Positions 40,891-56,904 of a stretch of 64,000 bases of DNA are shown here, piece after piece (the first letter of the stretch is position 1; each line of letters starts with the position of its first letter). The stretch is from Palleronia rufa. Its GTDB lineage: Bacteria > Pseudomonadota > Alphaproteobacteria > Rhodobacterales > Rhodobacteraceae. The stretch covers positions 158,112 through 222,111 of the forward strand of contig NZ_JQEY01000003.1 of assembly GCF_000743715.1 (NCBI RefSeq), written 5' to 3'. A program made the position numbers and the translations under genes. The notes under the pieces were generated by a model, which saw nothing but the letters and a program-made list of their open reading frames with translations, had not been told where the DNA came from and ran no database searches.

Positions 40891-41465
40891 CCGCCCAGGC
40901 ACTCCCTCAGCTTGATCAGGCTCCGCCGGAGCCATGTTCGCATCGTGTTCAGCGGCACGGCGAACCGGTCCGACAGGTCCTGATAGGACTGGCCGTCCAG
41001 ATACGCACCCCGCACGGCGGCGGCGCGGTCGTCGTCCAGCTCATCCAGGCAGCGGGCGATCTCCCGCGCCTGGGAGGCGGCGATGGCCTGCGCCTCCGGG
41101 CCGGGCGCCTTGTCCTCAAGCCCGCCCACGGCATCGGCATCCTCATGGACCACCTTGCGCGCGCGCAGCCGGTCGATCGCCGTGTTCCGGGCGATGGTGA
41201 TGAGCCACGTCATCGGGCTGAGCCCGTTCGCGGAATAGCGCCCGGCATTGCGCCAGACCTTCACGAAAACCTCCTGCAAGACCTCTTCCGCATCGGGCCT
41301 GCTGTCCAACACACGCAGGCAGACGCCGAACAGTTTCGCCGATGTCGCGTCGTAGAGAGCAAGGAAAGCGTCCCGATCCTGTTGCGCGGTGCGGGCGATC
41401 ATCGCCTCGATATCGTCTCTGGTGGTGGTCGCCAACGGCGTCGCTCCGGATCTGGGGACGGTCAC
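40887..41465 (-). CDS. ECF-family RNA polymerase sigma factor
   Basis: This 192-residue ECF sigma has region 2 (about 25-100, FLALYDATSAKLFGVCLRVL, EEVLQEVFVKVWRNAGRY and WLITIARNTAIDRLRAR) and region 4 (about 135-190, QSYQDLSDRFAVPLNTMRTW then LRRSLIKLRECL). Pairing with an RskA-type anti-sigma fits the SigK-like ECF group. It overlaps the anti-sigma gene (ATGA). It is divergent from cobS with a 135-base gap, where an autoregulated promoter would be expected. Confidence 0.93.
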   Translation of the reverse strand: MTVPRSGATPLATTTRDDIEAMIARTAQQDRDAFLALYDATSAKLFGVCLRVLDSRPDAEEVLQEVFVKVWRNAGRYSANGLSPMTWLITIARNTAIDRLRARKVVHEDADAVGGLEDKAPGPEAQAIAASQAREIARCLDELDDDRAAAVRGAYLDGQSYQDLSDRFAVPLNTMRTWLRRSLIKLRECLGG

Positions 41466-55419: not shown

Positions 55420-56304
55420 ATGGACACCATCGCGCTGACCGTCACCTGCCCGTCGACCCGCGGGATCGTCGCGGCGATCTCGGTCTTTCTGACCGAAAAG
55501 GGCTGCAACATCGTGGACTCCGCGCAGTTCGACGACCTCAGGACCGGCCGGTTCTTCATGCGCCTGTCTGTGCGGGCCGAGACCGGCGCGACGGCAGACG
55601 GCCTGGCCGAGGCCTTCACCGCGGTCGCGCAGCCTTTCGACATGGAATTCGCCTTCCACGACGAGTCGCGGAAGATGCGCGTGGTGGTCATGGTCTCCCG
55701 GTTCGGGCATTGCCTGAACGACCTGCTCTACCGCTGGCGCATCGGCGCGCTGCCGATCGACATCGCGGGCGTGGTGTCGAACCATCTCGACTACCAGAAG
55801 GTGGTGGTGAACCACGACATCCCGTTCCACCACATCCGCGTCACCAAGGACAACAAGGCCGATGCGGAGGCGCGGCAGATGGAGATCATCGACGAGGCCG
55901 GCGCCGACCTGATCGTGCTGGCGCGCTACATGCAGGTCCTGTCGGACCGGATGTGCCGGGAGTATTCGGGGCGGATCATCAACATCCACCACTCGTTCCT
56001 GCCGTCGTTCAAGGGCGCCAACCCGTACCGGCAGGCGTTCGAGCGGGGGGTGAAGCTGATCGGCGCAACGTCCCACTACGTGACCGGCGATCTGGACGAG
56101 GGCCCGATCATCGAGCAGGACACCGTGCGGGTGACCCACGCCCAGTCGAACGAGGATTACGTGAGCCTGGGCCGCGACGTGGAGGCGCAGGTCCTGGCCC
56201 GCGCGATCCACGCCCATGCGCGCCACCGGGTGTTCATCAACGGCGACAAGACGGTGGTCTTTCCGCCCTCCCCCGGCTCCTACACCTCGGATCGAATGGG
56301 GTGA
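55420..56304 (+). CDS. purU: Formyltetrahydrofolate deformylase
   Basis: This 294-residue protein has an N-terminal ACT domain (about 1-80, CPSTRGIVAAISVFLTEKGC) and a formyl-hydrolase domain (about 90-290). The latter shows VVMVSRFGHCLNDLLYRW, NINIHH-like IINIHHSFLPSFKGANPYRQ, SHYVTGDLDEGPIIEQD and the C-terminal HRVFINGDKTVVF. It hydrolyses 10-formyl-THF to formate and THF, balancing one-carbon pools. The stop codon TGA overlaps the first base pairs of a 71-bp tandem repeat array. It is divergent from the TPP enzyme with 231 bases between. Confidence 0.96.
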   Translation: MDTIALTVTCPSTRGIVAAISVFLTEKGCNIVDSAQFDDLRTGRFFMRLSVRAETGATADGLAEAFTAVAQPFDMEFAFHDESRKMRVVVMVSRFGHCLNDLLYRWRIGALPIDIAGVVSNHLDYQKVVVNHDIPFHHIRVTKDNKADAEARQMEIIDEAGADLIVLARYMQVLSDRMCREYSGRIINIHHSFLPSFKGANPYRQAFERGVKLIGATSHYVTGDLDEGPIIEQDTVRVTHAQSNEDYVSLGRDVEAQVLARAIHAHARHRVFINGDKTVVFPPSPGSYTSDRMG

Positions 56305-56657
56305 GCGCCGATCCGGCTCTGCCGGCGATCGCTCCGGTGGAGCGATCGAGGCGCGAACGGGCGGAGCCCCGCAGAGCGCCGATCCGGCTCTGCCGGCGAT
56401 CGCTCCGGTGGAGCGATCGAGGCGCGAACGGGCGGAGCCCCGCAGAGCGCCGATCCGGCTCTGCCGGCGATCGCTCCGGTGGAGCGATCGAGGCGCGAAC
56501 GGGCGGAGCCCCGCAGAGCGCCGATCCGGCGCATCCGGCGATCGCTCCGGTGGAGCGATCGGGGCGCGAACGGGCGGAGCCCCGCAGAGCGCCGATCCGG
56601 CTCTGCCGGCGATCGCTCCGGCGGAGCGATCGGGGCGCGAACGGGCGGAGCGCGGCA
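56303..56657. repeat. Five tandem 71-bp hairpin repeats
   Basis: Five units start at 56303, 56374, 56445, 56516 and 56587, an exact 71-base period. Each holds a 10-base-arm inverted repeat, CGATCGCTCC-GGT-GGAGCGATCG (unit positions 24-46), plus two smaller ones, CCGGC-TCT-GCCGG (11-23) and GGGC-GGA-GCCC (57-67). Units 1-3 look identical; unit 4 changes TCTG to GCAT in the small stem; units 4-5 have GGGGCG for GAGGCG; unit 5 has C for T in the main loop and diverges at its end. The main stem arms never change. Because 71 is not a multiple of three, any reading frame shifts at each unit, so it is not a protein repeat. The array begins within the purU stop codon. Confidence 0.97.
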
Positions 56658-56784
56658 GTCGTCGATCGCCCAGAGCGGTTCCGGCGCCGGGCGGACCGGG
56701 CTCCGGCGAGCGCCGTTGCGGGGTCGCTGGGCCGATCGCGGCGGTCGGCACCTGCGTGGCGGCGTGCCTTGAGTTTTTCGCGGG

Positions 56785-56844
56785 AGGGGGCGCTGCCCCC
56801 GTCGCCTGCGGCGACTCCCCCGGGATATTTTGGGAAAGATGAAG
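56785..56844 (+). repeat. Dispersed palindromic element, copy C
   Basis: This element is identical to copy B (44813-44872) except C to T near the GATATTT tail. It lies alone between the 71-bp array and the 3' end of oxyR, in the opposite orientation to oxyR, so unlike copies A and B it does not directly follow a same-strand stop codon. Stems GGGGGC-GCT-GCCCCC and GTCGCC-TGC-GGCGAC are intact. Confidence 0.85.
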
Positions 56845-56904
56845 GGCGGGACGGGCGCGGGCGCGGGCTGCGGTCCGGCGACGCGTGGGCGCGGGCGGTG
56901 TCTG

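Follow-up and report, generated by a model that had tools for sequence, protein, structure and literature searches.

The 3′ end of purU poses the question of what kind of sequence is repeated where an exactly phased tandem array begins inside a stop codon. Across the window (the whole 64-kb stretch of DNA analysed), TRF returned a single array at 56303–56658 with a period of 71, 5.0 copies, 96% matches, 0% indels and a score of 656, the runner-up array scoring only 88. The purU TGA lies at 56302–56304, and the array therefore begins at the second base of the stop, as the original prediction had claimed in describing five exact 71-bp units starting inside this codon. Units 2 and 3 are identical to unit 1, and units 4 and 5 each show four differences from it; the 10-bp arms (unit positions 24–33 and 37–46) are constant in all five units, with changes found in loop 1, at one base of the weaker stem 1, in the triloop of stem 2, in the linker and in the tail of unit 5, the last being an addition to the otherwise matching account of unchanged arms and variable loops, linkers and weaker stem given originally. 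The further claim that the unit is a nucleic-acid structure linked to the stop codon, and not a protein repeat, has likewise been borne out. Judged by comparison with other members of the family, the true start of the element is GTGAG at 56301–56305 (Table 1).

All five units are recovered at 58–90 bits by a search model, R2, built from 44 two-hairpin elements including the window's own; like arrays are present in other assemblies, and the count of five at purU is as assembled. Another R2 match in the window (41213–41271, minus strand, 17.3 bits) was taken as chance and falls within an ORF resembling, by eye, a sigma factor. Separately, a second dispersed intergenic repeat, a hairpin with terminal ggatattttgggaaagatgaag, lies 3′ of the array at 56783–56849 and has matches at ∼10 other loci.

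Table 1. Features of the purU array, in window coordinates, and arrays in the same genome.
Feature	Position	Strand	Remarks
purU, formyltetrahydrofolate deformylase	55420..56304	+	ORF list; NCBIfam PurU TIGR00655, E 2.9e-102; last codon GGG, stop TGA 56302–56304
GTGAG, element 5′ end	56301..56305	+	TGA is the purU stop and half of the proposed tandem G.A step facing GAAC
Unit 1 (71 bp)	56303..56373	+	R2 score 89.9 bits; unit itself a member of the R2 model
Unit 2, same as unit 1	56374..56444	+	
Unit 3, same as unit 1	56445..56515	+	
Unit 4, unlike unit 1 at 4 positions, one of which disrupts a hairpin 1 pair	56516..56586	+	
Unit 5, 4 differences from unit 1; tail hairpin with one pair broken	56587..56657	+	
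Outer stem 5′ arm GCGCC (unit 1)	56305..56309, partner 56350–56354 GGCGC	+	Covarying helix 1 of A2
Hairpin 1, CCGGC-TCT-GCCGG (unit 1)	56313..56325	+	Helix 2 of A2
Hairpin 2, 10 bp, triloop GGT (unit 1)	56326..56348	+	Helix 3 of A2
GAAC linker and mini-hairpin GGGC-GGA-GCCC (unit 1)	56355..56369	+	GNA triloop in 151 of 155 elements
Own-genome array C3			The purU array; starts at stop codon of upstream ORF
Own-genome array C13			4.1 × 60, units 100% identical; starts at stop codon of upstream ORF
Own-genome array C1			5.3 × 61, 100%; starts at stop codon of upstream ORF
Own-genome array C22			Two units 59 bp apart, decay beyond

The unit probably belongs to a REP-like family of mobile palindromic elements in the Rhodobacteraceae that neither code for protein nor move autonomously, and of which one copy has been amplified at purU. 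Within the window's own genome, the tail CGAACG[GC]GCGGAGC occurs in perfect form in 16 places, all within four arrays; comparison of the unit with its own genome, a check proposed originally, yielded two further loci by array search, and models add weaker copies, one of them at the stop of a lepA-like gene. A sister array on C1 near 451.8 kb (L425 1276–1576; 4.5 × 67 bp) has a different tail, GAACGCCCGAG..., and starts at the stop of a gene whose protein ends in ...LEWE.

Beyond this genome, a search for the hairpin core and tail in GTDB species genomes gave 109 stretches, all conforming to a single hairpin-core pattern, some from close relatives, and with divergent subfamilies under-represented; among the 80 titles listed, the label is Proteobacteria alone for two MAGs and Planctomycetota for one entry, and the rest bear Rhodobacterales names. 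The contig of the Planctomycetota-labelled MAG carries a well-formed element (L135 2244–2279), by contamination or transfer. A second model, R1, built from 26 one-hairpin elements, has matches in 88 of the 121 genomes that were sampled across the order (0–27 per genome under stricter filters), those listed all falling within the window's family, and R2 has matches in 12 of 14 genomes of the window's genus, which the likeness of its loci suggests, by eye, to be Palleronia. Genome G195 holds 51 exact tails, and 11 nearly identical copies there, several cut by contig ends, lie inside a longer repeat. A survey by tail pattern gave matches in 95 of 295 genomes and is weak for single copies, because a reversed control pattern matches as often or more in many genomes; the argument is carried by the arrays and model searches, not by this survey. 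The hairpin-plus-tail pattern has also been observed on twelve IMG/VR viral contigs (L308–L319).

This dispersal bears directly on a plain minisatellite, in which a chance palindrome behind purU has multiplied by slippage. Such a history would suit the exact period and the identity of units 1–3, and the comparison of copy number in relatives found an array at purU only in the window's genome among the 12 genus genomes in which the locus was read; recurrence of fold and tail at unrelated loci, both within this genome and family-wide, largely refutes it and renders it barely credible as a full account, with slippage the likely origin of the five copies. Of the three readings first offered for the array (a stem-loop array on purU mRNA, iterons or a minisatellite), the minisatellite thus stands only as local amplification, and the dispersed element had been missed.

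The element is laid out as GTGAG-NNNN, one or two hairpins, NNNN-CGAAC and a mini-hairpin GSGC-GNA-GCSC, with three recurrent layouts: one 10-bp hairpin, one 11-bp hairpin, or the two hairpins of the purU type. From a starting set of 126 distinct or array elements, with exclusion of 36 without an upstream TGAG/TAAG, two alignments were made, A1 comprising 26 one-length elements out of 45 of types 1 and 2, and A2 comprising 43 of 45 two-hairpin elements and the window's own. In A1, 98.6% of cells pair, both sides are changed in 52 cells and covariation is 0.319 against 0.074 in shuffles; in A2, 97.3% of cells pair, both sides are changed in 133 cells and covariation is 0.337 against 0.099, values to be read with kinship among the sequences, which can push covariation above shuffles, and with a search pattern that dictated four inner pairs of the hairpin, the closing base of the outer stem and the greater part of the tail, the 5′ arm being picked by best pairing among TGAG/TAAG sites. 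None of 500 shuffles reached the observed covariation in either alignment and slid controls drop to 0.008–0.069, so that the covariance test put forward in the original prediction returned strong stem covariation. Between lineages, stems change by compensation and not by the stem-breaking drift that had been named as counting against a functional role, although decay of a single copy does occur (locus L223).

A freer collection of 155 elements, for which a minimum of 6 of 7 outer pairs was required and GA facing GA earned a small bonus, has GTGAG at the 5′ end in 120 and GTGAA in 11; six copies with GTTTG, GTTCG or GTTTA at this end were also found. GA lies opposite GA in 138 of the 155, an arrangement that the scoring bonus favoured, and the adjacent pair in those 138 is G-C in 122 and A-T in 10; conservation of the 5′ end fits a putative outer helix that includes a tandem G.A step. 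The tail triloop is GGA in 144, GAA in 6, GTA in 1, GGC in 3 and AAA in 1 (GNA in 151), the loop being free in the collecting script, yet many loci having been fetched with GGA in the pattern. GNA loops and tandem G.A steps are stable motifs. PMC11101458 also touches on this subject. Folding as DNA gave z-scores of −2.4 to −4.4 for four elements, the window unit adopting the proposed fold, L094 nearly so, and L106 and L341 folding otherwise; folding of the same strand as RNA gave −0.8 to −2.6, with unit 4 folding differently. Because no pairing is assigned to the G.A step by the energy model, the proposed step rests on conservation. Pairing of an upstream G-run with the tail C-run was set aside by eye, as GGGG persists when the tail is GCGC. 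An Rfam scan of 2.7 kb of the window and eight loci, at E up to 1, gave no match on the element, the few weak matches falling outside it.

Whether this structure is maintained in DNA or in RNA was addressed through the imperfect pairs. RNA under selection is expected to favour G-U over A-C in stems. Among 1562 pairs, the non-Watson–Crick ones include 14 G-U and 14 A-C, in a comparison run without an RNA family as positive control; their equal rarity argues against RNA-level selection on each copy. A structured-RNA reading, favoured early for its covariation, was set back by these counts, and the pattern is read as structure maintained in the lineages that move, with neutral loss in individual copies.

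Movement itself is suggested by copies within insertion sequences. The element lies inside IS3-family sequence in G375 and G188, at the apparent orfA end, inside an IS91 transposase gene in G250, inside an IS5-like one in G295 and, by eye, within an apparent transposase in G303. Between IS3 copies in G375 the element is identical at 64 of 64 positions with left flanks matching at 88–97 of 110; two IS91 copies in G250 have identical elements (64/64) and left flanks matching at 95 of 110; and the IS5-like copies in G295 have elements identical at 63–64 of 64 and flanks at 102–104 of 120, while a second G375 group diverges (element 61/64, flank 73 of 110). The empty IS3 site of G188 reads GGGA-AACTTC-TAAGCCCC and the filled site GGGA-GTGAG...GAGCCCC-TAAGCCCC; as aligned, 6 nt are replaced for a net gain of 54. 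Filled and empty states are found at the IS3 site, within the single genome G188 and in other records, and also at the IS91 site, where the net gain is 61 with G-run ambiguity at the junction; no clean target duplication was found at the aligned IS3 and IS91 sites. Near-identical elements within diverged IS copies, together with filled and empty IS3 sites, therefore indicate that the element appears mobile; gene conversion could be an alternative explanation for the identity. In the plasmid search for an empty IS5 site, one IS5 record was returned, covering 47% of the query and leaving the junction uncovered.

The IS3 site includes GGGAAAC, which we take to resemble a frameshift heptamer. Other small inserts occur at the orfA end in plasmids of Thioclava, Paracoccus saliphilus and Cereibacter sphaeroides (L377, L378, L379), marking it as a small-insertion hotspot. 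Mobilisation by RAYT is unsupported: Y1_Tnp (PF01797), the sole enzyme family searched, is absent from G000 and from 10 of 11 carrier genomes, the single Y1 carrier among the 11 having a partial match of 26.6 bits; Y1 is present in one of 10 genus genomes (G295) and in three of 15 overall.

A close association with stop codons has been identified across the family. For the first element at each of the 109 loci, the stop triplet (TGA, in a few TAA) is the exact stop of the predicted upstream gene in 65; the others comprise 17 sense copies at a greater distance downstream, 9 that follow an antisense gene, 15 inside or overlapping predicted ORFs and 3 at contig edges, classes that rest on a simple, crude gene caller. 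The 65 stop-sharing proteins fall into 33 protein clusters, many of them housekeeping, including SucC, SucD, Asd, UvrC, Zwf, GuaA, LepA, DnaJ, CarB and GlyS, as well as an M3-peptidase-like protein and TIGR02466; GuaA, LepA and Zwf reach the last or last-but-one position of their NCBIfam models and are therefore not truncated. The last residue before the shared stop is G in 46, E in 13, V in 5 and Q in 1, all of them residues that would be preserved by a junction following codon position 2, with G-TGA contributed by the element and GG a short way upstream, the 19 Glu, Val and Gln cases fitting a looser motif. GGN.TGA stops, element-bearing ones included, number 84 in the loci (13% of 646 GGNTGA sites, counting stops and non-coding DNA together), against 562 GGNTGA sites in non-coding DNA, and the motif alone therefore cannot account for the stop preference; the excess over the GGNTGA prediction implies selection or a stop-linked mechanism absent from the insertion model. 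In eight plasmid records obtained with a type-1 query, for which the gene table is incomplete, the element is at an annotated stop in none, and in three it is antisense, between gcvH and gcvP in Ruegeria. At one recurrent locus (L069, L094, L102, L150, L153) an ATG follows within a few bases of the element's end, and the element's GGAG could serve as the ribosome-binding site of the downstream gene.

At purU, 26 loci were read, exclusive of L205 and L206 (51–53% identity) and of second purU copies, and four have the element or a remnant: the window array, a diverged copy in G300 (R2 38.7 bits), a decayed-looking one in G296 and, by eye, a tail variant in G046. The last purU codon is GGG in all four and in none of the 22 element-free loci, where it is GGC in 20, GGA in 1 and GGT in 1; three of the carriers belong to one genus and are therefore perhaps not independent. 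Of the 12 loci read in the window's genus, nine are element-free and the array, the diverged copy and a remnant account for one each, and genomes G295 and G298 gave no close purU match. In rpmD, for which four of 10 loci were compared, the element is present in G379, GGG TGA occurs in G363 with no element, and G294 and G326 have GGA TAG; the G363 locus means that GGG is no proof of insertion.

Array formation appears secondary to such insertions. One copy is present in 81 of the 109 groups and more than one tail within 200 bp in 28, counted as direct repeats with inverted pairs left out; 36 of 46 spacings between tails are 60–81. Units within an array are mostly alike, with two subtypes mixed in L127 and L185, and this homogeneity points to local duplication after insertion. 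An array of DNA sites for a host protein, iteron-like or bound by a nucleoid protein, would be consistent with phased direct repeats, a conserved core and the lack of any sign of RNA-level selection, but is highly improbable given a single copy at 81 of 109 loci and stem sequences that vary freely, which a sequence-specific binder would not allow.

For the favoured reading of a mobile palindrome, a route to the purU array can be proposed. The element would move as a single-stranded DNA fold, handled by an enzyme, and join after GG(N); where the last codon is GGN, GAR, GTN or CAR and the junction falls behind its second base, the element's leading G and TGA would restore residue and stop, leaving the protein unchanged and the insertion tolerated. 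The purU array would have arisen by one insertion (GGC to GGG, TGA, G) followed by head-to-tail duplication to five copies, a course shared with other loci. As a by-product, a terminating ribosome would at once meet a stable stem, making mild effects on purU mRNA decay or termination plausible. A tentative extension is that the tandem G.A step of the palindrome (TGAG facing CGAA) also serves as an opal stop and that insertion occurs preferentially at real stops, possibly through a translation- or transcription-linked single-stranded DNA mechanism, so that elements land in essential genes with proteins unaltered.

Retention by selection as a functional 3′-end RNA, in which the hairpin after the stop protects the 3′ end of the mRNA or holds back ribosomes during termination, is unlikely, although 65 of 109 elements at stop offset 0 exceed the target-motif prediction and the same gene is hit in more than one named genus for TIGR02466, dnaJ, glyS and a metallo-hydrolase-like gene. 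In PMC12306157, which cites an earlier study, ribosome stalling is attributed to E. coli REPs lying within 15 nt of a stop; by analogy, it would be a fair prediction that the array affects PurU output. Set against this retention are the equal G-U and A-C counts, the antisense and IS-internal copies, the turnover at purU (nine of 12 genus loci element-free) and the different subtypes behind the same gene: uvrC is followed by subtype 1 in L136, subtype 3 in L157 and subtype 2 in L175, as expected of separate insertions.

REP-like elements are common, and this family gives a sharp, single-base case of their gathering at gene ends. With stop-sharing genes such as sucC, guaA, lepA, dnaJ, carB and uvrC, and with empty orthologous sites obtainable, it becomes testable whether gene-end placement results from targeting, tolerance or function. 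Two cautions follow for annotation: such arrays create spurious long ORFs, and strong covariation may disguise a DNA element as a regulatory RNA.

No description of the element family was apparent among the titles of the matches listed from the open-access literature, and a term search of PMC5107571 gave no match. Comparison with known palindromes draws on PMC3733652, in whose main text Rhodobacter, Roseobacter and Paracoccus do not occur. CGTC-tagged REPs are described there as a palindromic family of Alphaproteobacteria with no dedicated transposase, with 8–9 bp stems starting with A-T pairs, 4–5 nt loops, mostly CCA tails and HH dimers. The present elements are alike in being alphaproteobacterial palindromes, apparently without a dedicated transposase, but differ, by description, in the 10–11 bp hairpin, triloop and GNA mini-hairpin, and they form direct repeats at 28 of 109 loci; A1 and A2 show neither terminal CGTC, 8–9 bp stem, 4–5 nt loop nor CCA tail, and an internal CGTC precedes the hairpin in part of the type-1 elements. 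Rickettsia palindromic elements, palindromes within or at the ends of ORFs (mentioned in PMC3733652), are likewise set apart by description, as they are described as adding coding sequence whereas the element here mostly ends the ORF.

The general features of REPs, short palindromes at many loci and often near 3′ ends, are shared, whereas the >100 copies per genome given for REPs in the abstract of PMC2817692 contrast with 0–27 R1 matches per genome and with the 51 exact tails of G195. GTAG-tagged REPs are reported in PMC3733652 as short palindromes lying mostly after coding regions and in some cases within genes, their ends often giving a TAG stop to flanking ORFs. The likeness to this GTAG REP/RAYT system lies in short palindromes behind genes that supply the stop codon; the elements here differ in having no GTAG end (GTGAG in 120 and GTGAA in 11 of 155) and supplying TGA, in a compound fold that combines an outer helix with a GNA mini-hairpin, in head-to-tail arrays, and in the absence of Y1 transposase from 10 of 11 carriers searched. 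The closest published kind is the REP, from which the stop-supplying habit is already known; what distinguishes this family is its fold, its use of TGA, its tandem arrangement and its lack of Y1 in all but one of the carriers searched.
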